Shown: positions 29,070 to 50,311 of the stretch, in pieces
Layout of the letters: each line of letters begins with the position of its first letter
Numbering within the stretch: position 1 is the stretch's first letter
Assembly: GCA_902826455.1 (NCBI GenBank)
Contig: CADEEV010000001.1
Span: 122,955 to 186,954 of the forward strand
DNA length: 64,000 bases
Origin: an uncultured Acidobacteriota bacterium
GTDB lineage: Bacteria > Acidobacteriota > Vicinamibacteria > Fen-336
Direction: 5' to 3'
Made by a program: the position numbers and the translations under genes
The notes under the pieces: generated by a model
What the model saw: the letters and a program-made list of their open reading frames with translations, nothing else
Database searches by the model: none
Told to the model about the DNA's origin: nothing

Positions 29070-29154
29070 TGGCGGAGGGCGAGGGATTCGAACCCCCAAA
29101 GGCTTGCGCCCGGGAGCTTTCAAGGCTCCTGCCTTACCGTTAGGCTAGCCCTCC
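29070..29154 (-). tRNA. tRNA-Ser (anticodon UGA)
   Basis: An 85-base class II tRNA on the minus strand including an encoded CCA end. Acceptor stem GGAGGGC pairs with GCCCTCC. The anticodon arm is GGAGC-CTTGAAA-GCTCC with anticodon TGA. The variable arm contains GGC-GCAA-GCC, and the T-arm carries TTCGAAT. A GATAAT box at 29171-29176 on the minus strand is a candidate -10 element 17 bases upstream. Confidence 0.95.
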
Positions 29155-29229
29155 GCGCGGCTTCGGGGCCATTATCGCCGCGCTTCGGGCTTCGTGGTAC
29201 GCTGTCTGTCCTTCAAGACGACCGCCCGC

Positions 29230-29322
<93 letters not shown>

Positions 29323-29326
29323 GACT

Positions 29327-29785
29327 CTAGGGCTCCTGCGGCAACGCCAGCGACGCCTGGCCGAAGAAGTAGCGCCAGCCGTTCGGCGTGCGCACGTAGG
29401 TGTCGCTGAACCAGAGCTTGCGGTCGAACGCCTTGCCGGCCTTCTGCCCCTTGATCCACAGCTTCGCGGTGACGACCGCGGTGTCGCCGGAGACGCGCAC
29501 CTTCTGCGTGCCTTCGACCTCGTCCTGCTTCTCCCAGGTGATGACCTTGCTGCGCGCTTCCTCGAGCAGGTCGGCCTTCGACTGGGTCGTACCGTTGCCG
29601 AGCACGAGCGTGAAGTCGTCGGCCAGGATGCGGCCCATCGTCGCGGCGTCGTTCGCCTTCACGGCGGCCTGGTACTCGGTGTCGAGGGCGGCGACGCTGG
29701 CCGCGTCGCGTTCCGGGGACGGATCGACGGCGGAGGTCATGAGCGCTCCCGTCGCGAAAAGCATGGAGAGAAGTGAAGTGGTCAT
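29327..29785 (-). CDS. Secreted SnoaL/NTF2-like (DUF4440) protein
   Basis: A 152-residue small protein with an N-terminal hydrophobic signal (MTTSLLSMLFATGALMTSAV) and an NTF2-like fold. The helix DTEYQAAVKANDAATMGRIL and LADDFTLVLGNGTTQSKADL, with the closing strands FSDTYVRTPNGWRYFFGQAS, match the DUF4440 group. Members are mostly of unknown function or act as small-molecule binding proteins or isomerases. The ATG at 29785 gives the signal peptide; the open frame runs on upstream without a better start. It ends 5 bases from the tRNA-Ser(GCU) 3' end, tail to tail. Confidence 0.75.
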   Translation of the reverse strand: MTTSLLSMLFATGALMTSAVDPSPERDAASVAALDTEYQAAVKANDAATMGRILADDFTLVLGNGTTQSKADLLEEARSKVITWEKQDEVEGTQKVRVSGDTAVVTAKLWIKGQKAGKAFDRKLWFSDTYVRTPNGWRYFFGQASLALPQEP

Positions 29786-29941
29786 GCGGAACAGTACGGT
29801 CGCGCGCTTCGTTCTACCCGCCGTTTTCGGACATGGTCGGTCGTGCACCTCCCGGGGCGACCCGCGGTCACCCGCTCGCGGGACGTGGTTCGAAGGGGTG
29901 CAGTAGGATGGCCCCACTTTCAAGGGCGAAGGGGAGGAATC

Positions 29942-30493
29942 ATGGCGAAGCGCATCGGGATGAAGTTCGGCGAGGCGATGGGGGTCGGCAGCGAGGACTG
30001 GCTCTGGACCGAGCCGGAGATCGCGATCGGCGAGCTGAACGGGCCGCTGGGGCAGTCCATGGCGAGCCTCATGGGACAGAGCGCCGGCTTCTCGCGCTTC
30101 TTCTGTCTCGTGGACGGCGGCAAGCAGGTGAAGCCCGTGACCCTGATGGTCCCGAAGGTGCACCTCAAGAAGACGATCGACGTCCAGATCTTCGGCGGGC
30201 CGGTGCAGGCCGGGATCGCGGACGGCGTCCTCGACGCCGTGGAGTCGGGGCTCATCCCGAAGAACCAGGTCGAGGACATCGGCATCATCTGCCTGGTGTG
30301 GATCGACCCGCGCCTGTCGACGATGAAGGACGCCGACTTCAACGAGATCTACCGCAACAACCGCTCCGCGATGAAGGAAGCGATCGAGAAGGCGCTCACG
30401 GGCAAGCCGTCGGTCAAGGACCTGTTGAAGGAAGACCGCCGCAAGCCGCGGCACATGTACTTCAACGCCGAAAAGGACCGCTGGCAGTTCTAG
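29942..30493 (+). CDS. Divergent formaldehyde-activating-enzyme (Fae) homologue lacking the catalytic histidine
   Basis: A 183-residue Fae-family protein. The fold signature is clear (GPLGQSMASLMG, MVPKVHLKKTIDVQIFGGPV, AGIADGVLDAVESGLIPKNQ, IEKALTGKPSVKDLL). Fae condenses formaldehyde with H4MPT, using a histidine in [11 protein letters not shown]. Here the corresponding region reads WLWTEPEIAIG, so glutamate 24 stands where the histidine should be, and two residues are inserted. It therefore belongs with the divergent Fae paralogues of unknown role found in methylotrophs. The start is the ATG at 29942 with GGAGGAA upstream. It sits at the left end of the H4MPT locus, convergent with the beta-RFAP synthase gene. 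Confidence 0.85.
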   Translation: MAKRIGMKFGEAMGVGSEDWLWTEPEIAIGELNGPLGQSMASLMGQSAGFSRFFCLVDGGKQVKPVTLMVPKVHLKKTIDVQIFGGPVQAGIADGVLDAVESGLIPKNQVEDIGIICLVWIDPRLSTMKDADFNEIYRNNRSAMKEAIEKALTGKPSVKDLLKEDRRKPRHMYFNAEKDRWQF

Positions 30494-30496
30494 CGG

Positions 30497-31426
30497 CTAC
30501 TCCGACCAGCAGCGCGCGCCGCCGTTGGCGAAGCCGGTGACGACAACGGCGCCGCGGCCGGCCAGGCGATGGGCGACGGCCGCGGCGCTCGCTTCGTCGG
30601 GAAACAGGCCGAAGACGGCGGGCCCCCACGACGACTGGCCGGCTCCGGCGGCTCCCATCGCGAGCATGTCGGCCACGAGCGCAGCGGCCGGGGCGCTCGC
30701 GAAACGATCGCCCTGGACCGGCGCGAACATCTCGCCGACCAGGACCTGGACCTCCGTCACCGCGCGGCCGAAGGACGGCAGGTCCGCCTCGGCCAGGGCC
30801 GGCAGGACGCCCATCAGAACGCGGTGCGCGATGCGCTCGACGAGCGACGCCGGCGGCGGCGGCAACTCGCGGAACGCGCGCTCCTCCGCCTGGCCCGAGA
30901 GACCGGCCTCCACCTCGGGGATCACGAGCACGGCGCGCCAGGCCTCCGGCATCGCCCGGCGCAACAGCAGGGTCGCCGGGGTCTCGCGACCGGAGCGCCG
31001 GCCGCCCTCGAGCAGGAAGCCTCCCTGCTCGAACGCCCACGTGCCGATCGCCGAGCGTTGGGCCCGACCCACGGCCGTCGCGAGGCCTGCGGCGTCGCGC
31101 GGTGTGTCGAACAGCTCCGCGAGGGCTCGCGCGGTCGCGAGCGCCAGCTGGGTGCCGGAGCCGAGGCCCGCGTGAGTCGGAATGCCGCGCCGCAGGCTGA
31201 GGTGCGCTCCGCCCGGGATGCGGTGGTATCCGAGGAAGCGGCGCGCGAACTCCGTTACCCGAAGGGCGTCCTCACCGTCCACCACGAGCGTGGCCGCCGG
31301 TCGTGCCTCGAGCCGCAGGGATGGCGCTTGCAGCGCCGCTCCGAGGCCCCCGAAGCGGCGGCCGAGATCGCCGCGCAGGTCGAGGACGCCAAGATGCAGG
31401 CGGGCGGGCGCTTCCACGACGACCAT
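30497..31426 (-). CDS. Beta-ribofuranosylaminobenzene 5'-phosphate synthase homologue
   Basis: A 309-residue GHMP-superfamily protein that begins VVVEAPARLHLGVLDLRGDL and has the GHMP loop RGIPTHAGLGSGTQLALA at about residues 80-98, both typical of beta-RFAP synthase. That enzyme joins p-aminobenzoate to phosphoribosyl pyrophosphate with loss of CO2, the first committed step of H4MPT synthesis. The ATG is 5 bases after the DUF447 stop. Genes for p-aminobenzoate synthesis (pabB, pabA) lie immediately upstream in the same operon, which fits this substrate well. Confidence 0.88.
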   Translation of the reverse strand: MVVVEAPARLHLGVLDLRGDLGRRFGGLGAALQAPSLRLEARPAATLVVDGEDALRVTEFARRFLGYHRIPGGAHLSLRRGIPTHAGLGSGTQLALATARALAELFDTPRDAAGLATAVGRAQRSAIGTWAFEQGGFLLEGGRRSGRETPATLLLRRAMPEAWRAVLVIPEVEAGLSGQAEERAFRELPPPPASLVERIAHRVLMGVLPALAEADLPSFGRAVTEVQVLVGEMFAPVQGDRFASAPAAALVADMLAMGAAGAGQSSWGPAVFGLFPDEASAAAVAHRLAGRGAVVVTGFANGGARCWSE

Positions 31427-31431
31427 CCGGC

Positions 31432-32001
31432 TCAACGCCCGGTCTCGAGCGCCGTGGCCTCGGCGGCGACGAACGCCTCGAGCCGCGCCATCGCCTCGTG
31501 TTCGCGAGGCCCAGCCGTCTTGTCGACGATCACCCGCAGCCGCCGGTACTCCGCCTGGATCTCGCCGATCGGCAGCAGGCGCGTGCGGGTCGCGAGGATC
31601 GTGGCCTCGAGCACGGCTCCCCGCGCGCGGTTGTAGCCCATGAACTCCCGGCGAAAGCCGCGGTGCACCACGTCGCAGGTGAAACGCGCCCGGGGCTCGT
31701 GGGTCTCGGCGTCGCGCACCCGCAGCTCGCGCCACGAGCAGGCCGCCTCGAGCACGACGCCGCGCACGAGCGTCGCCGGCGCCGAGGGGAACGTGGGCGA
31801 GGTGAGCGCCGCCTCCACGTAGAAGAGGACGTCGTCGACGAGGTTCACGACCGCCTCGGGGCCCGCTTGCAGGTTCCGGAACGTCGCGGTCTCGCGGTAG
31901 GGCTTGAGCACGATCTGCGCGTCGGCCCATTCCACCCCCATCGGCGCGACGTTCGGCGTGCCGGCGGCGTCCACGGTCGTCACCAGGGTCTCGAGGATCA
32001 T
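31432..32001 (-). CDS. DUF447 protein of the H4MPT locus
   Basis: A 189-residue protein of the DUF447 family: the start [20 protein letters not shown] and [20 protein letters not shown], then [14 protein letters not shown], resemble a split-barrel flavin-binding domain. A helical C-terminal part follows. The family occurs in methanogens and in bacteria that make H4MPT, nearly always with cofactor genes, but its reaction is not established. FMN-dependent reduction of a pterin or furan precursor is a plausible guess only. The ATG overlaps the pabA stop (ATGA), and the stop is 5 bases before the beta-RFAP synthase ATG, so it is tightly coupled to that pathway. Confidence 0.82.
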
Positions 32002-32579
32002 GCTGCCCGTGCGCGGCGCAGCGCGAGGAAGTTCCGGAGCAGGGCGTGACCGTGCTCGGTCAGCACCGACTCCGGGTGGAACTGCACGCCCCACACGGGC
32101 CACTCGCGGTGACGCAGCGCCATGACCTCGTCGTCGGGCGTCGTCGCCACGACCTCGAGACTCGCCGGCAGGCCGTCGCGTTCCACGATCAGCGAGTGAT
32201 AGCGCGTGGCGTCGAACGGGCTCGGCAGGCCGGCGAAGATCCCCTTCCCGTCGTGATGGATGGGGGACGTCTTGCCGTGGCGTGGATGGGCGGCGCGCGT
32301 CACCCGACCGCCCAGGGCGTCGGCCAGGCACTGATGGCCGAGGCACACCCCGAGGATGGGGATCGTGGCGCCGAACTCGGCGATCACCCGGTTCGAGATG
32401 CCGGCCTCGCGCGGCGTGCAGGGGCCGGGAGACACGACGATCGCGTCGGGCTTCGAGGCCGCGATCTCCTCGAGCGTGATCGCGTCGTTGCGCTTCACGA
32501 GGGTCTCTTCGCCGAGCTCGCGCACGTAGCGCGCGAGGTTGTGGACGAACGAGTCGTAGTTGTCGATCAGCAGGATCAC
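31998..32579 (-). CDS. pabA: Aminodeoxychorismate synthase glutaminase subunit
   Basis: A 193-residue class I glutamine amidotransferase. The N-terminus [20 protein letters not shown], the nucleophile motif [11 protein letters not shown], and the histidine-glutamate pair in [15 protein letters not shown] form the catalytic triad. It supplies ammonia to PabB for aminodeoxychorismate; the same protein type also serves anthranilate synthase (TrpG), and dual use cannot be excluded. The GTG start at 32577-32579 overlaps the pabB stop. Its position between pabB and beta-RFAP synthase points to p-aminobenzoate for H4MPT. Confidence 0.92.
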
Positions 32580-33970
32580 GAAGAGACGCCCTCGAGGGCG
32601 GCCGCCATGCCGCGGGCCTTGTCCAGGGTCTCGTCGTACTCGCGGGCGGGGTCGGAGTCGGCCACGATGCCGCCGCCCGCCTGCACGTAGGCCCGGCCGC
32701 CGGTGACGACGAAGGTGCGGATCGCGATGCTCGTGTCCATGGCGCCACCGAACGAGAGGTAGCCGAGGGATCCCGTATACACCCCGCGCCGCGTGGGCTC
32801 GAGCTCCGCGATGATCTCCATCGCCCGGACCTTCGGCGCGCCCGTGATGGAGCCGCCGGGCCACGTCGCGCGCAGCAGGTCCACGGGGCCCAGGCCCGCA
32901 CGCAGCTGGCCCACGATGGTCGACACGAGGTGATGGACCGTCGCGTAGCGCTCGACGCGGCACAGCTCGGGAACCTCGACCGTGCCGTCGCGGCAGACCT
33001 TCGAGAGGTCGTTGCGCAAGAGGTCCACGATCATCACGTTCTCGGCGCGATCCTTCTCGCTCCCGGCGAGCGCCTCGCCGAGCGCCCAGTCGTGGCGCGG
33101 GCTCAGGCCCCGGGGCGAGGTGCCCTTGATGGGGCGGGTCTCGACGCGGTCGCCGGTCAGGAGCAGGAAGCGCTCGGGCGAGGCGCTCACGATCTGGGCC
33201 GGCCCGATGTCGAAGTAGCCTGCGAAGGGCGCGGGGTTGCGCTCCCGCAGCCGCCGATAGAGGGCGAACGCCGGCTCGTCGATCGGCGCTTCGAGGCGCT
33301 GCGAGACGTTGGCCTGGAAGATGTCCCCGGCCAGGATGTACTCCCGCGTGCGGGCCACCGCCGCCTCGAACCCGCCGCGCGTGAACGTCGAGACCAGCTC
33401 GGGAAGCTCCGCGACGGGATGCGTCGCCGCCCGCGGCCCTGAAAGGGGGCGTCGCGACGTCTGCGGCGCGCTGCGTGGCGGCCCGGCCAGCCGTGCCTTC
33501 ACCGCGTCCGCGCGGAGCTGGGCCCGGCGCGCCGCGGCTTCGCCGCGGTCGGGGAAGCCGCTCGAGAACAGCCACGTCCTCTCGCGCTCGTGGTCCCAGG
33601 CGAGCGTCCAGTCGTAGAGCCCGAGGCACAGCTCCGGAAGCCCGAGGTCGTCGAGCTTCGGCCAGGGGAGACGCTCGAGGCGATGACCGAGGTCGTAGCC
33701 CAGGTAGCCCGCGACACCCGCCTGGAACGGCGGCAGATCCGGGAGGCTCTCGACGCGGAACGTCGCGAGGGACTCCTCGAGCGCCGCGAAAGGATCCGCG
33801 GGACCACCGCCCTCGAGGACCTGCCAGGGATCCGCCGCGAGGAACGAATAGCGCGCCGCGCCCGTGCCGGGTCGTGCGCTCTCGAGGAGCAGGGGATAGG
33901 GAAGATCGAGGAAGCGCGCGCAGGCGTCGGCCGGCGAGGGCGCGGCGTCGAGCTCGAACGCCAGGCTCAA
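32576..33970 (-). CDS. pabB: Aminodeoxychorismate synthase component I
   Basis: A 464-residue chorismate-binding enzyme that aminates chorismate to 4-amino-4-deoxychorismate. Characteristic segments are [55 protein letters not shown] (lysine of the PIKGT motif of PabB), [15 protein letters not shown] and [17 protein letters not shown]. The PIKGT signature favours PabB over TrpE. The TTG start at 33970 overlaps the TGA of the preceding dihydropteroate-synthase-like gene; longer versions run inside that gene. No pabC lyase is in the window. Confidence 0.92.
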
Positions 33971-35388
33971 ACGCCGCGACCCTTGCGTCGCGTCGCGGCC
34001 CGTCGGCGGTCCGCCCGCTCCCGGGACGCCCGCAGGCGCGTCTCGCGCGGCCCGTGGGCGGAGACCGGCGCCTCGGGCGGCGTCAGGTAGCCCCACTGCA
34101 GCTCGGCTTCCTGGGAGTAGCTCTTGCCCAGGCGCAGCGCGAGGCTCGCCTTCTGCAGCTCCTTGCCGAGATAGAAGGCGTGGCTCGCCTCCTGTACGTC
34201 GAGCTGCGGGAAGATCTCGGAGATGTCGGTGCCGCTCACGAAGCGCTCGGCGTTGAACACGTGGATGCGCTCGCCGTCCACGAACACGCGGTAGTCGAGG
34301 TCGCGGATCTTCGTCTGCATCGCGCGCAGCTCGGCCTCACTGTACACCGCGACCGCGGCATCCCGCGCCACGAGCAGCCGGCCGTCGACGCGCTTCGGAA
34401 GCGCCTTGCGGGTGACGGCGTAGTGCATCAGGCGGCGGGCGATGTCGGCCTCGCGGACCGCCCCGCGGGCCCAGGGAATCTCGGCGGTCGTGAGGACGTG
34501 ACGGATCCCGAGCTCCTGGCAGTAGCCCATGAGCAGAGCGGTGATGCCGGTCGAGTCGGCCTCGGTGAGCTCGGTGAGGTTCGCGATGCCCATCAGCATC
34601 TCGATCCTCGGAAAGCGCCGGCGCACCTCGTAGTAGCGATGGAGCGACTCGGCCGCGCCGAAGCCGATGGGATCGAGGACGGGGTCGGCGAGGAACGGGA
34701 CCCCCCAGGCGTCGAGCCGCTCGACGCTGCGCTCGAGGCTGTCGATGCCGCCGCCGAAGTCGGGGATCACGACCACCGGCACGCCGACCTCGCGGGCCAG
34801 CTCGAGGTTCGAGCCGTTGACGCTCAGCACCAGCTCGGCGCCGGCCTTCACGGCCGTGCGGACCTCGGCGGCGTCGAAGCTGTCGATGCTGACCTTGTGG
34901 CCCTCGGCCCGGAGCGCCGCGACCGTCTCGCCCAGTCCCGGGAACGACGCGCCCTTGCTGCAGCCGACGTCGATCACGTCGGCGCCCTCGTCGGCGAAGC
35001 GCCGGGCCCGCTCGAGGATCTCCGGCAGGCTGAAGCGCGCGGCGTCGTTGATCTCGGCCAGGATGCGCACGTCGTGGGCGCCGTAGTCTGCGCGCACGGC
35101 CACGCCGAAGTGCTCCGGAATGCGCCGGAGGTCCTTGGGCCCCTTCTCGGTGCGGACGCCCAGCTTCTTCTCGATCACGGAGACGTCGCCCTGGGTGTGG
35201 CCCGGCAGCAGGATGAGAGCGGCCTTCCGGTCCACCTTCAGGAAGCGCGACACCCAGTCGGTCGTCATCAAGGCCGCCACGGTGATCCCGAGAACGGCCA
35301 CCTCGGGCTCGACGCGGGCCGGCAGCGTCGCCAGGGTCTCGCGGAGCAGGGGCTCCGCGAGCGTGCCGGTGACGAAGACGACCTTCAT
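33967..35388 (-). CDS. Dihydropteroate-synthase-like protein of the H4MPT locus
   Basis: A 473-residue protein. Residues 1-125 form an N-terminal domain ([35 protein letters not shown]). The middle is a TIM barrel of the pterin-binding family with [34 protein letters not shown] and [15 protein letters not shown]. The C-terminus ends in a basic tail. Homologues accompany beta-RFAP synthase genes in methanogens and methylotrophs and are thought to join the hydroxymethylpterin to the arylamine to give dihydromethanopterin precursor. This is a family-level inference. The start overlaps the carbinolamine dehydratase stop. Confidence 0.85.
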
Positions 35389-35738
35389 TTCATGACGAAC
35401 TTGTTCGGCGTGCCCTCGAGGGCGGAGCCTGGCGCGGGACGCCACAACGCGGCGTCCTCGATCTTGCGGGCCAGCTCGAAGTCGCGCTCCGTGATGCCGT
35501 TCTCCGAGTGCGTCATGAGCTTGACCGTGACCTTCGCGAACGTGACCGCGAGGTCCGGATGGTGCCAGGCGGCCTCGGCGAGGAACGCGATCTGGTTCAC
35601 GAGCAGCAGCGTCGTGGGCCAGCCGTCGGTCTTGTAGCTGCGGCGTATCCAGCCGCCCTCGTACGTCCAACCGGGCAGCTCCGCGAGGCGGGCGCTCACC
35701 TGCTCTTCCGTGTAGGTTCCCAGCTTCTCTTTCGTCAT
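35385..35738 (-). CDS. Pterin-4a-carbinolamine dehydratase-like protein
   Basis: A 117-residue PCD/DCoH-family protein. The catalytic pattern EAAWHHPDLAVTFAKVTVKL followed by MTHSENGITERD contains both histidines of the HH motif, the THxxGIT strand and the acidic residue. Classical members dehydrate 4a-hydroxytetrahydropterins or aid transcription. In an H4MPT operon without aromatic hydroxylases a role in pterin isomer repair or H4MPT synthesis is more likely. It is the first gene of the leftward block ending at beta-RFAP synthase. A TATCAT box six bases before the ATG suggests a leaderless message. Confidence 0.88.
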   Translation of the reverse strand: MTKEKLGTYTEEQVSARLAELPGWTYEGGWIRRSYKTDGWPTTLLLVNQIAFLAEAAWHHPDLAVTFAKVTVKLMTHSENGITERDFELARKIEDAALWRPAPGSALEGTPNKFVMK

Positions 35739-35770: not shown

Positions 35771-36499
35771 ATGCCCGCGACCCGACTGCTGGTCAGCATC
35801 GTGTCGGCCGACGAGATCGCGGCGGCGCTCGCCGGCGGCGCCGACATCGTGGACGTGAAGAACCCGGCCGAAGGCGCCCTCGGAGCCCCGGCGCCGTCCT
35901 TGCTGCGCGCCGCCCGTGAGCGGGTGTGTGCGCCGGCGCTCCTGTCCGTCGCCCTCGGGGACGCCCCGCATCTGCCCGGGACGCTGGCCTTCGCGGCCGC
36001 AGGAGCAGCGGCCTGTGGCGCGGACTACGTGAAGGTCGGGCTCCGCGGATCCGACGAGCCGCAGTCCGCCCTCGAGATGCTGCGGGCGCTCGTGTCGGCC
36101 GTCGGTACGACGGCGCGCGTGATCGCGGTGACGTACGCCGACGGGGCGGGGCTGCCGCCGCTGGAGCTGCCGCGGGTCGCCGCCGAGGCCGGCGTCCACG
36201 GCGTCATGCTCGACACCCTCGAGAAGCACGGCACGTCCACGTTCGCGGCCTTGGGGGCCGCGGCGGTCGCGGCGTTCGTGGACGACGCCCGCGAGCGCGG
36301 TCTCGTGACGGCGCTCGCCGGTTCGCTCGGCAGCGACGGCTTGGCGCGGGCCTGCCGTCTCGGCGTCGACTTCGTCGGAGTGCGCGGCGCCGCCTGTGAC
36401 GGCGGGCGCGACGGCGTCGTGAGCCCCGCCCGTGTGCGGGCGCTCCGCACGGCCCTCGACCTCAGCGCAGCCGAGTCCCTCGCGTTCGGACGCCCCTGA
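35771..36499 (+). CDS. mfnB: 4-(hydroxymethyl)-2-furancarboxaldehyde-phosphate synthase (MfnB)
   Basis: A 242-residue TIM-barrel enzyme of the MfnB family, which makes the furan ring of methanofuran from two glyceraldehyde-3-phosphate molecules. LLVSIVSADEIAAALAGGAD then IVDVKNPAEGALGA carry the essential DVKNP lysine; DYVKVGLRG, GVMLDTLEKHG and LGVDFVGVRGAACDGGRDG are further family motifs. It is the only H4MPT/methanofuran gene here on the plus strand apart from the Fae paralogue. Its last 38 bases overlap, tail to tail, the end of the amino-acid-kinase gene, so both reading frames are used there. Confidence 0.92.
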   Translation: MPATRLLVSIVSADEIAAALAGGADIVDVKNPAEGALGAPAPSLLRAARERVCAPALLSVALGDAPHLPGTLAFAAAGAAACGADYVKVGLRGSDEPQSALEMLRALVSAVGTTARVIAVTYADGAGLPPLELPRVAAEAGVHGVMLDTLEKHGTSTFAALGAAAVAAFVDDARERGLVTALAGSLGSDGLARACRLGVDFVGVRGAACDGGRDGVVSPARVRALRTALDLSAAESLAFGRP

Positions 36500-42443: not shown

Positions 42444-43406
42444 TCACCCGAACAGCGACTGGCGCAGCACGTCCGGGTTGAGCTCGCCCGCCTCGAAGCT
42501 GCGGCCGCTCTTCACGTTCGTGATCGTGATACGGGCCGGGCTGAAGAGGTGGGGATCGACCTTGTAGAAGTCCCACTCGTAGCGCTTGAAGAGCTCGTAG
42601 AAGGGCGTGCCGTAGTCGCGAGACGCCGACGAGGGCACCTGCGGCACCAGGCGCTCGAGGACCGCGTCGTCGGCGTCCACCGTGAGCTGCACCCGGCCGC
42701 CGTAGAGCACGCAGTCGTTGGTGCGTCCGATCGCGCGCATGTCGTTCTTCGCGATCGGCGCGATCGGCGCCGTGCCCGTCGCGCACAGGACGCGTCTCAC
42801 GTCGAACTGGAGCTCGTGGAGCTTGTGGAGCGCCGTCTCCACGACGCGGGCAGCGATCTGCACGCCCGCTGCCGGCGTCGCCGTGGGCGCGGCCAGTAGG
42901 ATCAGGCGCTCGGCTGCGAGCCCCGCCCGCGTCGCGATCCAGTCCGCGACCGCGGCGGACGGCAGCGTCCGCGTCTCGAGGACCAGCACGCCCGGACCCT
43001 CGGCGCTCTCCGAGTAGCCGAGGGCCTCGTAGAGCGGCCCCTCGACCCGGGCAATGGCGCGGAGCGGCCCCGAGCCCATCGCGAAGAAGCCCTCGGGCTT
43101 GATCGCCCAACCGGCGTACTGCGAGGCGAGGCAGGCCGTCGCGGGGTGGTCGGTGCGCACGAAGACGCCCGGCAGCTCCAGGTCCTCGACCGCCACGGTC
43201 GTGAGCTCGACCTGGCCGGCGCCGCCGAGGCACACCTCCGCCAGGCGCCTGCCGGCCTCGAAGCCGCCGGGCGTTTCGATGCCGCAGTCGAGACGGCGTG
43301 CGCCGTTGTCCAGGGTCGCGACGCGGATGCCGAGCAGCGCCGCGTCCGCGGTCATGGTCCGGGCCAGCTGCGCCGCGCGCTCGTTCAGCTTCAGGATGCC
43401 GTCCAC
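42444..43406 (-). CDS. mch: Methenyltetrahydromethanopterin cyclohydrolase
   Basis: A 320-residue Mch, hydrolysing methenyl-H4MPT to 5-formyl-H4MPT. Family motifs include LNERAAQLARTM, GARRLDCGIETPGGFEAGR, GWAIKPEGFFAMGSGPLRAI, CATGTAPIAPIAKNDMRAIG, and KVDPHLFSPARITITNV at the end. Length matches bacterial and archaeal enzymes. The GTG at 43404-43406 overlaps the fhcC stop by 16 bases; the open frame extends further upstream within fhcC. It follows fhcC and precedes the MptN-like ligase. Confidence 0.95.
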   Translation of the reverse strand: MDGILKLNERAAQLARTMTADAALLGIRVATLDNGARRLDCGIETPGGFEAGRRLAEVCLGGAGQVELTTVAVEDLELPGVFVRTDHPATACLASQYAGWAIKPEGFFAMGSGPLRAIARVEGPLYEALGYSESAEGPGVLVLETRTLPSAAVADWIATRAGLAAERLILLAAPTATPAAGVQIAARVVETALHKLHELQFDVRRVLCATGTAPIAPIAKNDMRAIGRTNDCVLYGGRVQLTVDADDAVLERLVPQVPSSASRDYGTPFYELFKRYEWDFYKVDPHLFSPARITITNVKSGRSFEAGELNPDVLRQSLFG

Positions 43407-44203
43407 TTGAGGATCTCCCCGCGGCCGAGGTCCGCATGATCGCCGCCGAATCGGTCGAATGCGCCGGCGGCCATGGCGCCGACGTCGAAGCCGTGACGCT
43501 CGAGGCTCGCGAAGAGCAGGTCCACGTAGCCCGGGCGATAGCGGCACGCGTAGCGGAACGTGGGCAGCAGCTCGAGCGCGCCGCCCGCGACGATCGACCC
43601 GCGCTTCAGGCCGATCCCCGCTCCCGGGCCGAGCGCGCCGCGCACGACCAGAGTCCCCGCGACCATGTGGGCCCCCGCGTACGCTCCGGCCGACCCGCCG
43701 ACGGCGATCACGCCGCGCCGCAGGCGCTCGCCGACACGGACGCCGACCGAGCCGCGCACGAAGGCGAGGCCGCCCGTCATCCCGCGCGAGCTGCCTGGGG
43801 CCGCGCCGCAGAACGCCGCCGCCGCGTTGCCGTGCACCACGAGCCGGCCGCCCCGCATGCCGAGCCCGGTCCAGTCGTCGGCGTCGCCCTCGACCACGAG
43901 GGACCCACCGCTCATGCCGGCGCCGGTGTGGCGGCCGGCCGAACCCGCGACGATCAGGCTTCCGCCGATCATGCCCGCGCCCAGGCGCTTCACGCGCCGC
44001 ACGTCGCCCTCGACGCGAACCTGGTCGGCGTGCTCCCCGCGCACGTCGAAGAACTCTCCCAGGGCCACGACCTCCCGGCCGTGCTCCACCGGAAGGCGCG
44101 CGATCGCGGCCTCGGAGAGCGTCGCGAAGGCGTCGGGCCGCACGCACGGCGCCTCCAGGGCGACGCTCGGCGCCTGGCGCAGCGTGAGTCGCACCTCGCT
44201 CAC
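43391..44203 (-). CDS. fhcC: Formyltransferase/hydrolase complex subunit C
   Basis: A 270-residue FhcC/FwdC-type protein built of right-handed beta-helix repeats related to glutamate synthase domain 3: GAGMIGGSLIVAGSAG, GAGMSGGSLVVEGDAD, GLGMRGGRLVVHGNA, MTGGLAFVRGSVG, GAHMVAGTLVVRGALG. It is the structural partner of FhcA, FhcB and FhcD in the bacterial complex that passes formyl groups from H4MPT to methanofuran and releases formate. The GTG at 44201-44203 overlaps the fhcD stop. Confidence 0.94.
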   Translation of the reverse strand: MSEVRLTLRQAPSVALEAPCVRPDAFATLSEAAIARLPVEHGREVVALGEFFDVRGEHADQVRVEGDVRRVKRLGAGMIGGSLIVAGSAGRHTGAGMSGGSLVVEGDADDWTGLGMRGGRLVVHGNAAAAFCGAAPGSSRGMTGGLAFVRGSVGVRVGERLRRGVIAVGGSAGAYAGAHMVAGTLVVRGALGPGAGIGLKRGSIVAGGALELLPTFRYACRYRPGYVDLLFASLERHGFDVGAMAAGAFDRFGGDHADLGRGEILKWTAS

Positions 44204-45126
44204 CGGGCGGCCTCCGCGAACAGGGCGTGGAGGGGGAAGAGATGCTTCCCGAGCTTGCCCCCGTAGTTGCCGGCCGAGATCTCGACGACGCCCGGCCGGC
44301 AGGCGGCGTCGATGCCGGCGCGCAGCGACGCCTCGATCGCGGCGCGGTCGAGACCGTTCACGACGATCTCGAGAGTCGAATGCACGCCGTCGGGGAGCGC
44401 GCTCGTCACGCCCACCCGTCCGCGCAGCGACGGGCAATAGGCGTCGTTCGTCGAGGCCACCATCTTCTTGTAGCGGCGCGCGCCGACCTTGCTGCCGCTG
44501 CGCACGACGCCGCCCGGGAAGGGGAGGATGACGCCGCGGACGCGACGCATCGCGTCCACCGCGGCCTCGGCCGCCGCGAGGGCCGCAGCGGCGTCGACGG
44601 CGAGGATCAGGAAGTTGCCGCCGCCGATCGCCCGCTGCACGCCGACGGACGCCTCGACCAGGAACTCGCCCTCCATCACCGGCACGCGCCAGAAGCGCCG
44701 GCCGTCGATCACCTTGCTCGACTGAAAGCCGTCCCCGAAGAAGCGCAGCCCTTCGCCCATCGGCGCGCGCTCGGTTCCGCCGGGGAGCCCGTCGAAGCAC
44801 GCGGCTGTCGCGCACGTCAGCAGGGTCTGGCCCACCCGTTCGACCACGCGCTGTCCGAGACCGGCGGCATCGAACGCGAAGAGCAGCACGCTGACTCCCG
44901 GGCGGCCGTCGGGCGTCTCGGAAGGGCCGAGCTCCGCCTCGACGCCCGCCTCCACCTTGCAGCCGATCACCGAGGTGGCGAAGCCCGTGAGCGCGTCGGC
45001 CCCGATGCGCGCCCAGCGCGGCGACGCGGCCGTGATCACGAGACGTGTGGCGCGCATGCCGAAGGCTTCGGCGTAGGTGTCGCGGATCGCGACGCCGCGT
45101 CGTTCGAGAGGCACGCCGTCGGTCAT
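44200..45126 (-). CDS. fhcD: Formylmethanofuran:H4MPT formyltransferase subunit (Ftr/FhcD)
   Basis: A 308-residue formyltransferase that moves the formyl group from formyl-H4MPT to methanofuran. Sequence signatures are IRDTYAEAFGMRATRLVITA at the N-terminus, GFATSVIGCKVEAGVEAELG, IGGGNFLILAVDA, FPGGVVRSGSKVGARRYKKM and the end EISAGNYGGKLGKHLFPLH. The ATG overlaps the fhcA stop. Full length; the conserved C-terminal lobe is intact. Confidence 0.95.
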   Translation of the reverse strand: MTDGVPLERRGVAIRDTYAEAFGMRATRLVITAASPRWARIGADALTGFATSVIGCKVEAGVEAELGPSETPDGRPGVSVLLFAFDAAGLGQRVVERVGQTLLTCATAACFDGLPGGTERAPMGEGLRFFGDGFQSSKVIDGRRFWRVPVMEGEFLVEASVGVQRAIGGGNFLILAVDAAAALAAAEAAVDAMRRVRGVILPFPGGVVRSGSKVGARRYKKMVASTNDAYCPSLRGRVGVTSALPDGVHSTLEIVVNGLDRAAIEASLRAGIDAACRPGVVEISAGNYGGKLGKHLFPLHALFAEAAR

Positions 45127-46691
45127 CGCGCCGCTCCGATCTCGTCGGCCCCGACCACGTAGTCCTCGAGGCTCAGGCTTCCGGCTTCGGCCAGCACTCG
45201 CCCGAGAGCGCGCTCGACCGCAGGATCGAAGGGCGGCGTCGCCTGCAGCGTCCGGCCCCAGGTCTCTTCGCGGATCGCGCCGTCCTCCGCCACGCGACGG
45301 CCCGCCTTCAGGACGTGGCGCGGCGTCGTGAACATGGTCTCGAGGTTCGCGTCGGGGGCATACAGCGCCACGTCGGCGTCGGCGCCCACCCCCAGATGGC
45401 CCTTGTGCTCGAGCCCCAGCAGTCGCGCCGGGGCCGCGCGCGTCACGATCGCGACCTCGTACAGGCTGTACTCGCGGGCGAGGCCGTCGCGGAGCGCCGT
45501 GCCCTCGAGCCCCTGGGGATGCACGCGGGCGATCTGCTCGTCGCGGTACGCGCGATCCATCAGCAGCCGGAGCAGCCGGGGATAGGAGAGGAAGGTGCCG
45601 CCGTTGGGGTGATCCGTGGAGAGCACGAGGCGCCACGGATCCGGCGAGAGCAGCAGTAGCTCGAGACCCGCCGCCCATTGCATCGCGTGGACCACGTTCC
45701 TCTCGCGGTACTCGTAGGGCACGACGCCGCAGCCTCCCTCGAGCTCGAGATCGGCATCCACCCACTTGCGCCCGGTGAGATCGTGGAGCATCTCGCCGAC
45801 GCGGGCGTCGGCCGTCATGGTGGTGGCGGGTCCGAACATCACCTGGCCCACGTCGGCGCTCACGTTCGCGTGGGCCGCGAGGGCCGCGCTCAGCTCGCGT
45901 GCCCGCGACGTGGGGCGCCCTCCCGGCTCGCCGCCGTAGACGTGGAACTGCAGGTGCGCCAGGTGGACGCGCCGGCCTTCGAGGGCCGCGATCGTGTCGA
46001 GGGTCGTCGTCGCGTTTCCCGCGAGGCCCAGGTTGCTGCAGTGGAGATGCATCGGGTGGGGCAGCGCCAGGGCATCGGCCGCCCTCGCGAGGGCCGTGAG
46101 GATGCGCCGGGGCGTCACGCGCCGGCCGGGCAGCGCGTCGTCGAGGCCCGGCGTTCCGCGCGCGGCCTTCCAGGCGGCGCCGCCGCCGGGGTTCACGACC
46201 TTGACGCCGTAGGCCCGCGAGGCCCGCACCGCCCAGCCGAGCACGTCGCGCACGGCGTCGTCGCTTCCGTCCTCGAGGGCCGCGAGCACGAACTCGTCGT
46301 TGCCCAGGAGGACGTAGAAGCCCTTGTCCACGAGCGGCGTGTCCTGCAGCTCGAGGTGCGCGTGGCGCGCCCCCAGCAGCGGCACCGCGGCGTCGAAGAC
46401 CGTCGTGTACCCGAGCAGGGTGTAGAGCCGCCCGGTGTCGGGAACCGTCGGGACGGTGCGGCGCTCCGGCTCGAGACGCCGGGCCAGGTTCACCTTGGGC
46501 CCGGCGACGTGGGAGTGGATGTCCACGGCGCCCGGCATCACGACGAGACCCGCCGCGTCGAGAGTCGGCGCGTCTCCGGGCAAGGCCGCCACGACGCGGC
46601 CGTCCTCGATGCAGATGTCGCGGATCGCGCCGTCGATGGCGTGGCGCGGGTCGTAGACGCGGCCACCCGTGATGCGCAGCCGCTCGCTCAC
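45123..46691 (-). CDS. fhcA: Formyltransferase/hydrolase complex subunit A (amidohydrolase)
   Basis: A 522-residue amidohydrolase-fold subunit that hydrolyses formylmethanofuran to formate. The metal-binding HxH is at residues 59-61 (DIHSHVAGPK), with further ligands in VNPGGGAAWK (likely carboxylated lysine region), MHLHCSNLG, HLAHLQFHVYGG and STDHPNGGTF. The C-terminal region GLEHKGHLGVGADADVALY is the composite beta-sandwich. The GTG at 46689-46691 overlaps the fhcB stop. Gene order in the direction of transcription is fhcB-A-D-C. Confidence 0.95.
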   Translation of the reverse strand: MSERLRITGGRVYDPRHAIDGAIRDICIEDGRVVAALPGDAPTLDAAGLVVMPGAVDIHSHVAGPKVNLARRLEPERRTVPTVPDTGRLYTLLGYTTVFDAAVPLLGARHAHLELQDTPLVDKGFYVLLGNDEFVLAALEDGSDDAVRDVLGWAVRASRAYGVKVVNPGGGAAWKAARGTPGLDDALPGRRVTPRRILTALARAADALALPHPMHLHCSNLGLAGNATTTLDTIAALEGRRVHLAHLQFHVYGGEPGGRPTSRARELSAALAAHANVSADVGQVMFGPATTMTADARVGEMLHDLTGRKWVDADLELEGGCGVVPYEYRERNVVHAMQWAAGLELLLLSPDPWRLVLSTDHPNGGTFLSYPRLLRLLMDRAYRDEQIARVHPQGLEGTALRDGLAREYSLYEVAIVTRAAPARLLGLEHKGHLGVGADADVALYAPDANLETMFTTPRHVLKAGRRVAEDGAIREETWGRTLQATPPFDPAVERALGRVLAEAGSLSLEDYVVGADEIGAAR

Positions 46692-47749
46692 GAGGCGAGC
46701 GCCTCCGCGAGGCGTGCCAGCACCGTGGCCTCGCTCGGGTGGTCCGAGCTCTGGGGGGGCGCGTGGCGTAGCGCGACGCCGTCGCCGCGGAAGACCCGGC
46801 CGGCCGTGGCGCCGAACGCGCTCGTCGCGAGAAACACGCGGGCTCCTTCGCGCTCGACGGCCCCGAGTGCGACGCAGGGGACGCGCGCGAGTTGCGCGGC
46901 GGCCTCGTTCGACAGGTGCGCCTCGGGCTCGACGCCGACGAGAAGCACGGCGTCCACGTCGCCGCGCTGCAGGAGCGTCTCGGCCGCGAACTCGCCGGGC
47001 CCGTAGCGGGGCCCGTCGGCGCCGAAGCGCACGGAGGCGGGGAAGCCCGTGAGCCAGGTGAGCACGTTCTCGGCCCCGACGGGGTTGCTCCCGCGACGCA
47101 GGCCCGAGAGCCGTACGCGGGACTTCCGGTGACACTCCCGTACCAGCGCGGTCAACGCGTCGGCACGACACGCGTCGCGCCGGGCGGGCGCCGGGTCGGC
47201 GTCGCACACGACGACGCCGTAGCCACAGGAGACCAGGCGCCTCGCGAGGCTGCGCAGGGCCTCCACCGGCAGGCTCCCGGCCTGCGCGGCGTCCACGCGG
47301 CGGCCGCGCGCGAACGCGCGGAGGGCGAGAAGCGCCGGGATCTCCTGATCGGGCTCGAGAGCGAGCCTCGTGTCGGCGTCCGCCGGTCCGCGGGCCGAGC
47401 CCACGTCGACGCTCACCCGCGCCAGGCCCGGACGCGGCGCGAGCTCCGAGGCGTCGGAGCCACACGCCCAGAAGACGGCGAGTTCCGCGTGCCGGTACTC
47501 GCCCCGTGACGCGAGAGCCGCCCCCAGGCGCTCGAAGGCGCGGAAGGAGCCGGCATGGCTGGCCGAAGCGGGGGTGTCCAGGATCGCGCCGAGGCGGCGC
47601 GCTACGGCCACGGCTGCCCGCTGGGCTTCCACCGTGCTGTCGAGAAGGCCGTAGACGAGGGGCTGCCTGGCCGCGCGCAGCAGCCCGGCGGCCACCGCCA
47701 CCGCGGCGTCGAGCTCGCTCGGCTGGCCGTCGACCGTCGAGCGCCTCAC
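46688..47749 (-). CDS. fhcB: Formyltransferase/hydrolase complex subunit B
   Basis: A 353-residue FhcB, the bacterial counterpart of the molybdo/tungsto-formylmethanofuran dehydrogenase subunit B. It is shorter than the archaeal protein and shows no N-terminal iron-sulphur cysteines, as expected for the non-redox bacterial complex. QPLVYGLLDSTVEAQRAAVA and RGSNPVGAENVLTWLTGFPA are recognisable family segments. The GTG at 47747-47749 overlaps the stop of the upstream ATP-grasp gene; a longer open frame upstream lies inside that gene. Confidence 0.9.
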   Translation of the reverse strand: MRRSTVDGQPSELDAAVAVAAGLLRAARQPLVYGLLDSTVEAQRAAVAVARRLGAILDTPASASHAGSFRAFERLGAALASRGEYRHAELAVFWACGSDASELAPRPGLARVSVDVGSARGPADADTRLALEPDQEIPALLALRAFARGRRVDAAQAGSLPVEALRSLARRLVSCGYGVVVCDADPAPARRDACRADALTALVRECHRKSRVRLSGLRRGSNPVGAENVLTWLTGFPASVRFGADGPRYGPGEFAAETLLQRGDVDAVLLVGVEPEAHLSNEAAAQLARVPCVALGAVEREGARVFLATSAFGATAGRVFRGDGVALRHAPPQSSDHPSEATVLARLAEALAS

Positions 47750-48846
47750 GCCGGCACCCCGGCGTGGCACGCCCGCGCGATGGCCTGCGCCGATGCCACG
47801 AGCCGCCCGTGGCACTCCGCGTCGTCCGAGCCCGTCGCGAAGACCGTGCAGATCGGCTGGCCGCGCCGCAGGGGAGCGCCCGGCGCCGGCACGTCGCGGA
47901 CCGTGTCGCCGCCCAGCCAGGCGCGCGTGTCGGGCGCGACACCGTCGGCCTGGGCCCACACGATGGCCTTGCCCCAGACGCCGGCCGGCGGCGGGGCGAA
48001 CGGGACGCCGAGCCGCCCACGGCACGCCTCCACGTGGACGTCGAAGACGCTCGCGCCGGTCGCGCGCTCGACGAGCTCCATCGAGGCACAGTAGCGCGGG
48101 TTGAGCTCGAGCACGAACGCCTCGCCGTCCCTCAGGACGAAATCGAGGCCGTTGACGCCGACCAGTGCGAACTCCACGGTGAGCGCCTGGACCAGCGCGT
48201 CGAGACGAGCGGCGATCGCGGTCTCGGCGCGGAGCGGGAACAGGCTGCCGCAATAGCGGAACCCCGTGGCTCCGAACGCGGGCTCGCCGGCCAGGCCGGC
48301 GGCGATGCCGAGCACCACGGCGCGCCGGCCGTCGGCCGCGAACGTGACGGAGGCGAGCGTGCCGTCGATCCGTTCCTGGACGATCTCGCGCGGACCTGGA
48401 GTCGTGCCCGGCCCGAGAGCCCGGACGCCCGTGCCGCCGCCGCCCCGGCGGGGCTTCCGGAGCCAGCTCCGCCCCTCGGTCCGCGCGTCCGTCGGGCCGA
48501 GCGTCAGGGGCACGCGGCCGCCGTGGCGCGTGATGACGGCCTGCAGCCGCGCGACGTCGCGCGCGCCTCGGAGGGCTCGCGGCGCGTTGCCGAGGCGCTC
48601 GCGGCCGCGCGAGAGCCGCGCGACGACGGCCGGATGGTTCTCGAAACTGCTGCCGTAGACGAGGGCCCGTCCGGGAAAGGCCTGGGCGGCGGCCGCCACG
48701 GCCGTCGGGCTCCAGCGTCGGCCCAGGGCGAGGTTGGGCACGAGGGCCGTCTGGTCCAGGTCGCCGAAGGCGTCGATCGTCGCGCAGTCGTATCCCGCGC
48801 GCGCGGCCGACTCCGCGAGCGCCCGCGTCGAGAGGCCGACGATCAG
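47746..48846 (-). CDS. ATP-grasp protein with an obscured start, between fhcB and mtdB
   Basis: An ATP-grasp protein of about 331-366 residues (RSWLRKPRRGGGGTGVRALG, ALVGVNGLDFVLRDGEAFVL, ELNPRYCASMELVERATG). The first usual start, GTG at 48741, would cut off a convincing N-terminal Rossmann-like strand encoded upstream (VLIVGLSTRALAESAARAGY). That segment is open back to the mtdB end but has no ATG, GTG or TTG. The coordinates given use a CTG at 48846. Alternatively the ATG coupled to the mtdB stop (TGATG) is the true start and one base is missing within the next 15 bases. A homologue occupies comparable positions in methylotroph H4MPT clusters; glutamate or amino-acid ligation to a cofactor is likely. 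Confidence 0.75.
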   Translation of the reverse strand: MIVGLSTRALAESAARAGYDCATIDAFGDLDQTALVPNLALGRRWSPTAVAAAAQAFPGRALVYGSSFENHPAVVARLSRGRERLGNAPRALRGARDVARLQAVITRHGGRVPLTLGPTDARTEGRSWLRKPRRGGGGTGVRALGPGTTPGPREIVQERIDGTLASVTFAADGRRAVVLGIAAGLAGEPAFGATGFRYCGSLFPLRAETAIAARLDALVQALTVEFALVGVNGLDFVLRDGEAFVLELNPRYCASMELVERATGASVFDVHVEACRGRLGVPFAPPPAGVWGKAIVWAQADGVAPDTRAWLGGDTVRDVPAPGAPLRRGQPICTVFATGSDDAECHGRLVASAQAIARACHAGVPA

Positions 48847-48862: not shown

Positions 48863-49723
48863 TCAGAGGCCCGCCGCGAGATCGTAGATCTCCTCCGCGT
48901 CGAGCACGAGGTCGTTGCGTTCGAAGAGCCGCGCTACGGCGGCCTTGTGCGCCTTCATCTTGAGCCCGCCGATGCCGAGCGCCCCGAAAGCCGGCACGCC
49001 CTCACGCGGCGTCCCGTTGTCGATGGCCTCGACGCCCTCGATGCCCATCGGGGGCACGGCGTTCACGTCGGCGACGGCCTTGAGGCTTCCCTGGCCGCTC
49101 CACGCGTCGCGCGAGAGCAGCTGGACCCCGGCGGGGCCGGCGGCGAGCACCAGGTCCGCGTCGCCCACGAGAGAGCGGGCCTCGGCCGGACCGGAGACGA
49201 CCGTGTGCTCGACCGAGCCCTTGAAGCGCGCGCCGATCTCCGCGGCCGCCGCAGCGCCATGAGCCCGGTCGCGCGAGGTGATGCGGACCCTCGCCCCGAG
49301 GCGCAGGAGCAGGCCCGCGGCGCGCGAGCCGACCGGGCCGGTGCCGGCCAGTACGAGAGCCCGCAGCCCCTTCGCATCGCCGCCCGCCGCGCGCACGAGC
49401 TTGACCACGGCCGCGGCGGCCGTGGTGTTGGAGCCGTTGGGGTCGAACAGGATGGAGACGCGGAACGGCCCGAAGAACGCGTTCTTGGCCGCCTTCAGCA
49501 GCGTCTCGCCCTTGGCCATGCTCGCGCCGCCCACGAACAGCGCCGTGTTCTGGAGGTCCTTCGGACCGCGCGTGAAGATCGCGCCGTGGACCAGGCCGCG
49601 GACGTCCGCCTCCGCGACGCCTCCGTAGCTCAGCACCTCGTCGGCGCCGGCGTCGTAGGCCACGATGCGGTCGAATGCGCTGGGGTGGGCGTCGCCGTCC
49701 AGTTGCAGGAGCAGCTTGCGCAT
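48863..49723 (-). CDS. mtdB: NAD(P)-dependent methylene-H4MPT dehydrogenase
   Basis: A 286-residue MtdB. It oxidises methylene-H4MPT to methenyl-H4MPT with NAD(P). The Rossmann motif is LVLAGTGPVGSRAAGLLLRL, and the C-terminus FGALGIGGLKMKAHKAA followed by LFERNDLVLDAEEIYDLA is characteristic of MtdB/MtdA. MtdB rather than MtdA is favoured by linkage to fae, mch and fhc and by absence of folate C1 genes nearby. The ATG is preceded by a weak ribosome site and by a GC hairpin in the 72-base gap after fae. Confidence 0.92.
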   Translation of the reverse strand: MRKLLLQLDGDAHPSAFDRIVAYDAGADEVLSYGGVAEADVRGLVHGAIFTRGPKDLQNTALFVGGASMAKGETLLKAAKNAFFGPFRVSILFDPNGSNTTAAAAVVKLVRAAGGDAKGLRALVLAGTGPVGSRAAGLLLRLGARVRITSRDRAHGAAAAAEIGARFKGSVEHTVVSGPAEARSLVGDADLVLAAGPAGVQLLSRDAWSGQGSLKAVADVNAVPPMGIEGVEAIDNGTPREGVPAFGALGIGGLKMKAHKAAVARLFERNDLVLDAEEIYDLAAGL

Positions 49724-49795: not shown

Positions 49796-50311
49796 CTACT
49801 TCTTGTCGGCGCCGCCCGCGAAGGGGTGCGTCGCGGTCTTGGCGCCCGTGAGGACCTCGTCGAGCGTCGGCTTGCCCTTGAGGGCGCGCTCGATCGACTC
49901 CTTGGTGGCCTGGTAGTTGTACTGGTAGATCTTCTTGTCGTCGGCCGCTTCCCAGTGGATGAAGACGCCGACCAGGATCACGTAGTCGTTCGCCTTGTCC
50001 TTCGGGATGACGCCCGAGCTCACGGAGTCCACGACCGCGCGGGCCACGGCGGCCTGGGCCGGTCCGAACATCTGGACGGCCTGCTTCGCGCCCTTGATCG
50101 TGACCTTGTTGAAGAGCAGCGTGTCGGGCTTGCAGGGAAGGTTGGGCGCGACGACGGCCAGGAGCGACGTGAAGCCGTCCTTGTTGTTGGAGAGCGCGTT
50201 CACGAAGGCTTGACCCGCGGGCCCGCTCTTCGACCCGATGATGAGGTCGATGTGGGCGACCTCGTTGCCTTCGCCGACCAGAGATTCGCCGATGAAGAAG
50301 TCCGCTGCCAT
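49796..50311 (-). CDS. fae: Formaldehyde-activating enzyme
   Basis: A 171-residue canonical Fae catalysing condensation of formaldehyde with tetrahydromethanopterin. [20 protein letters not shown] contains the catalytic histidine (H20). [60 protein letters not shown] and [17 protein letters not shown] complete the family pattern. The ATG is preceded by a strong AGGAGGATGAA ribosome site, the best of the locus, consistent with high expression. It is the first gene of the 13-gene leftward run ending with the amino-acid kinase at 36.5 kb. Confidence 0.97.

Follow-up and report, generated by a model that had tools for sequence, protein, structure and literature searches.

Judged from alignments and phylogeny, FaeL, a 183-residue Fae-like protein with Glu24 at the catalytic histidine site, is the acidobacterial branch of a clade of Fae-like proteins that lack this histidine. 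Its gene, faeL, lies at positions 29942-30493 (+ strand) of the window, by which we mean the whole 64,000-nucleotide stretch of DNA that was analysed. The reading we prefer, with a probability of about one half, is that FaeL is an accessory of the H4MPT pathway which probably binds H4MPT or a C1 adduct, and is not the main formaldehyde-condensing enzyme. The role of extra Fae-like proteins in C1-oxidising bacteria is a long-standing question. A family of Fae look-alikes has already been catalogued, of which FaeL is a new acidobacterial member, and the His-less kind of paralogue is now extended to soil Acidobacteria. In the papers searched we found no report of histidine loss in Fae-like proteins, though one may still exist.

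FaeL has glutamate in place of the catalytic histidine

The faeL reading frame starts with the ATG at 29942 and stops at 30491-30493. The sequence GGGGAGGAATC occupies the ribosome-binding region ahead of this ATG (29929..29941, + strand), in agreement with the strong ribosome site described in the initial annotation. FaeL matches the Pfam family Fae (PF08714) over residues 10-168, nearly the full chain with an E value of 1.6e-44 (152 bits). In a profile-to-PDB-sequence comparison it aligned with entries 1Y5Y and 1Y60. A genome search returned only two Fae homologues, FaeL itself and a canonical Fae of 171 residues (49796..50311, - strand), which keeps the histidine of the AHID motif. Against TIGR03126, the equivalog model of canonical Fae, the latter scored 256 and passed the cut-off of 118.05, whereas FaeL scored 109.2 and fell below it. 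The distinction originally drawn between a normal copy at 50 kb and a non-canonical one at 30 kb therefore holds.

Multiple, profile-to-PDB-sequence and profile-profile alignments agreed in placing Glu24 of the motif WLWTEPEIAIG opposite the histidine of canonical Fae, with a two-residue insertion in FaeL immediately before it, exactly the replacement first proposed. We also looked for an alternative histidine at the active site. The alignments contained none at the FaeL site; the sole candidate, His74 at the Thr68 position, is glutamine in all seven acidobacterial orthologues. The rest of the fold may be kept, as was claimed: AlphaFold gave two poor models of FaeL (mean pLDDT 43.5 with 5 alignment rows and 50.1 with 6), from which we draw no active-site geometry, although Fae entries were the only significant PDB matches of the second model, whose input alignment included a true Fae.

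The histidine loss marks one clade

The loss of the histidine is real, but it is not peculiar to one gene: it runs through a whole clade, with glutamate or methionine at the site and four more fixed changes. Seven other acidobacterial genomes encode FaeL orthologues, 70-79% identical and all with glutamate at the site; four of them were also matched as named MAGs, with three labelled gp22. Since these orthologues come from independent MAGs and dN/dS is low, faeL is not a chance reading frame. The more distant relatives, located on proteobacterial plasmids, carry methionine (n=11) or, in Methylobacterium DM1, glutamate (n=1). A scan of viral contigs gave no relatives.

In a tree of 39 rows, the 20 His-less proteins formed one side of a branch with support of 100/100, and the 19 canonical Fae on the opposite side all keep histidine. 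The split was unchanged when the long-branched DM1 row was left out. Histidine is retained in a third divergent group of Fae-like proteins, from Streptomyces clavuligerus, Burkholderia and Caballeronia, in which Asp19 is changed to Asn; the loss of histidine therefore marks one clade.

We tabulated the residues of 19 His-less proteins (8 acidobacterial FaeL and 11 proteobacterial Met-type) against those of 19 canonical Fae, using the usual Fae numbering for residues 17-83 and that of the window Fae for 119-120. Every member of the canonical set carries the AHID His and Asp; the same columns read Glu/Glu in the acidobacterial proteins and Met/Glu in the proteobacterial ones. Asp19->Glu, Leu48->Phe, His119->Asp and Trp120->Pro occur in 19 of 19 His-less proteins, window FaeL included, and none of the proteins tabulated, His-less or canonical, departs from Lys66 or Gln83. 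The Thr68 position holds Gln or His in acidobacterial FaeL, and Thr is kept in the Met-type proteins. Asp19 and Leu48 are among what we take to be the ligand-contact positions of Fae.

These residues bear on whether FaeL could be an active hydro-lyase, with Glu24 serving as acid/base for the histidine and formaldehyde being condensed with H4MPT at another rate, or released by the reverse reaction. Glutamate is ionisable and fixed in 8 of 8 acidobacterial sequences as well as in Methylobacterium DM1, and the reverse reaction has been proposed for Fae homologues (PMC6277846, PMC5023235). On the other hand, the sister proteins have methionine at the site, four further fixed changes stand alongside, and FaeL scores under the canonical equivalog cut-off, all of which make such an activity unlikely.

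The failure of two homologues to replace Fae1 in published mutants points in the same direction. We infer that fae2 of M. aquaticum 22A (Maq22A_1p31155) is the Met-type protein L037, because no Fae homologue other than L037 turned up on that replicon. Deletion of this fae2 led to slower growth on methanol and a lower yield, and fae1 mutants did not grow on methanol despite having fae2, so that Fae2 is no substitute for Fae1 (PMC7356819). Likewise, fae3 of strain 20Z, whose clade membership is uncertain, did not complement an AM1 fae1 mutant (PMC11748545). Deletions of fae3 elsewhere, which count against the accessory reading, caused no growth defect (PMC5023235, PMC11748545), and in Methyloversatilis Fae3 is methylamine-induced and its loss gives no phenotype (PMC5023235); those Fae3 proteins may or may not share the clade of FaeL. 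Among published Fae2 and Fae3 proteins, only the putative 22A Fae2, identified by its replicon, was placed on our tree, where it groups in the His-less clade.

faeL stands at the edge of an H4MPT island

The H4MPT setting assumed for faeL was confirmed: the gene ends an H4MPT island that reaches to fae at 50 kb. It converges with a gene of the beta-RFAP synthase family (mptG, H4MPT biosynthesis; 30497..31429), which is followed, likewise on the - strand, by genes for a DUF447 protein (31432..32007), a pabA-like glutamine amidotransferase (31998..32582), a pabB-like chorismate-binding enzyme (32576..34096) and a dihydropteroate-synthase-like protein of the TIGR00284 type (33967..35390), the starts of all five being approximate. 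Next come a pterin-4a-carbinolamine dehydratase (PCD) homologue (35385..35738, - strand) and a 4HFCP synthase (MfnB-like, methanofuran biosynthesis; 35771..36499, + strand). The island also contains PTPS, CitG-like and RimK-like genes and, on the - strand, mch for methenyl-H4MPT cyclohydrolase (42444..43390, start approximate), fhcCDAB for the formyltransferase/hydrolase complex (43391..48253, limits approximate) and an mtdB-like methylene-H4MPT dehydrogenase gene (48863..49723). No PQQ methanol dehydrogenase and no GlnT or N-methylglutamate context was found in the genome above curated cut-offs.

Upstream of faeL lie a divergent gene for a DUF4440/SnoaL-like protein (29327-29785, - strand) and, just outside the island edge, two tRNA-Ser genes (TGA on the - strand and GCT on the + strand; 29070-29322). 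We considered the tRNA-Ser pair as an attachment site of the island and rejected it, as no attachment-like repeat was found and the neighbouring tRNA holds the only other copy of the tRNA end in the window.

Canonical Fae is also present in seven of the eight FaeL genomes, and the exception, the only sampled genome with FaeL and without any Fae, is 75% complete. At the level of sequence, then, co-occurrence and neighbourhood show the His-less clade to be tied to H4MPT metabolism. This association with the H4MPT pathway in the sampled Acidobacteria, here at the island edge, speaks against the idea that FaeL handles C1 units for a different pterin, tetrahydrofolate, or a different aldehyde. Such a role, which we regard as quite unlikely, would fit the pocket, where Leu48 is changed to Phe and Thr68 to Gln or His; the Thr68 position is also variable in the separate Streptomyces/Burkholderia group that keeps the histidine, and a folate-linked role has been modelled for a different homologue, Fae1-2 of 20Z (PMC11748545).

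The neighbourhood is also relevant to a sensor or regulator reporting the level of formaldehyde or C1-H4MPT, as was proposed earlier for Fae-like proteins (PMC3728764, PMC4109929). For Fae-like Groups 2-4, both sensing and folate-linked roles have been suggested (PMC11748545, PMC3728764, PMC6277846). The Azospirillum oryzae homologue adjoins a chemoreceptor gene, but we recognised neither regulator nor chemotaxis genes adjoining faeL in the window or in gp22, and an M. aquaticum triple mutant without fae2 retains methanol and formaldehyde taxis (PMC10613068). We accordingly hold a sensory function to be very unlikely.

A carbinolamine dehydratase gene follows faeL in gp22 genomes

In the gp22 family, faeL lies outside the H4MPT island, and a PCD gene closely follows it in 6 of the 6 genomes whose contigs extend that far. 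This lead came from a noisy tblastx neighbourhood comparison, from which it was the only one kept, and was then checked by tblastn. The PCD gene at 35385..35738 is the sole PF01329 copy in the window genome, which has no aromatic amino-acid hydroxylase for PCD to serve. Within the class of genome G077, the close PCD type is found in exactly the seven FaeL genomes. We dropped the idea that it is exclusive to FaeL genomes, as G070 and plasmids of Azospirillum also have it close to canonical Fae, with FaeL absent; PCD is therefore tied to the H4MPT pathway and not to FaeL alone. Moreover, the adjacency of faeL and PCD is confined to one bacterial family and may be inherited synteny. A split carbinolamine dehydratase, in which FaeL would hold H4MPT and bound formaldehyde while the PCD-like protein supplied the missing histidine chemistry, giving a two-protein route to methylene-H4MPT or to its hydrolysis, is a speculation to which we attach very little weight.

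Selection on faeL and its separate history

Among close gp22 relatives (four pairs) the dN/dS of faeL was about 0.05-0.10, and for two pairs at greater distance it was 0.27-0.30, values that are approximate because the NG86 method was applied to high-GC3 genes. Such low ratios indicate that FaeL is under constraint by purifying selection. Together with a frame that is intact in eight genomes and an apparent horizontal transfer into the window genome, this argues against a decaying pseudo-enzyme without function, an idea that the absence of FaeL from a related Fae-bearing genome (G199, 95% complete) would suit but that we find scarcely credible.

The two Fae homologues of the window show discordant kinship to the gp22-family Acidobacteria (f29), suggesting separate acquisition. 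FaeL is 74-78% identical to the f29 FaeL proteins, which share only 67-69% identity with that of their own class-mate G161. By contrast, the canonical Fae of the window is only 63-65% identical to f29 Fae, which are 85-87% identical among themselves across genera. A constraint grouping the FaeL of that class without window FaeL was narrowly rejected (AU p 0.032), as was, more firmly, one placing the window Fae with f29 Fae (p 0.007); both values are flattering because the tested groups were picked after the tree had been seen. None of the 13 sampled family-mates of the window genome has any Fae. These comparisons are most simply explained if faeL and the main fae entered the genome by separate routes.

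Proposed role of FaeL

As an accessory of the H4MPT pathway, FaeL, in which Lys66 and Gln83 are unchanged, would retain enough of the pterin cleft for binding H4MPT or a C1 adduct, and would not be efficient at condensing formaldehyde with H4MPT. Working beside the true Fae, it would most likely hold, buffer or release C1-H4MPT as the methylene or carbinolamine form, and the carbinolamine-dehydratase-like protein encoded adjacent to it in gp22 may be its partner. A point against this proposal is that H4MPT binding may have been lost or altered, because Asp19, Leu48 and the histidine are changed and Thr68 is Gln or His. The clade-wide signature of a lost histidine with retained Lys66 and Gln83 offers a criterion, open to testing, for telling catalyst from accessory, and the PCD gene adjoining faeL in gp22 Acidobacteria provides a concrete candidate partner.

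Comparison with known Fae and Fae-like proteins

FaeL belongs to the same Pfam family as Fae of Methylobacterium extorquens AM1 (1Y5Y/1Y60; TIGR03126) over about its full length and shares its Lys66 and Gln83. It differs from that enzyme by His17->Glu in addition to the four diagnostic changes, and by the two-residue insertion, a longer C-terminal tail and a score below the equivalog cut-off. By description, FaeL resembles the Fae-like Groups 2-4 and the Fae2/Fae3 of methylotrophs, distant Fae paralogues that occur beside a true Fae (PMC11748545, PMC5023235, PMC4109929); the phyla named in the published tree of Fae-like groups exclude Acidobacteria.

Two Fae-like genes were seen near glycine-betaine genes: in Streptomyces clavuligerus the His-keeping gene (L092, 2845-3417) comes after genes of a glycine-betaine ABC transporter, and in Azospirillum oryzae the FaeL gene (L032, 5983-6513) is near genes that encode a ring-hydroxylating dioxygenase and a binding protein for glycine betaine. 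A link to betaine demethylation is possible.

FaeL also resembles the proteobacterial MPE-motif proteins, which include the putative 22A Fae2 (L037) as well as homologues from Azoarcus KH32C and Aquabacterium that adjoin fhc genes. They fall in the clade of FaeL (100/100), are 32-41% identical to it along the alignment and show the same four other changes, but have methionine at the histidine site, a retained Thr68 and different neighbours. The 'aldehyde-activating protein' of Methylobacterium sp. DM1 (L029) has glutamate at the site, as FaeL does, and branches with the acidobacterial proteins (98/94); it differs in its long branch, about 41% identity to FaeL, and its position on a conjugative plasmid (L029, 1403-6549) next to N-methylglutamate-pathway-like genes, namely a glutamine amidotransferase, glxC, a glutamate-synthase-like gene and glnT.
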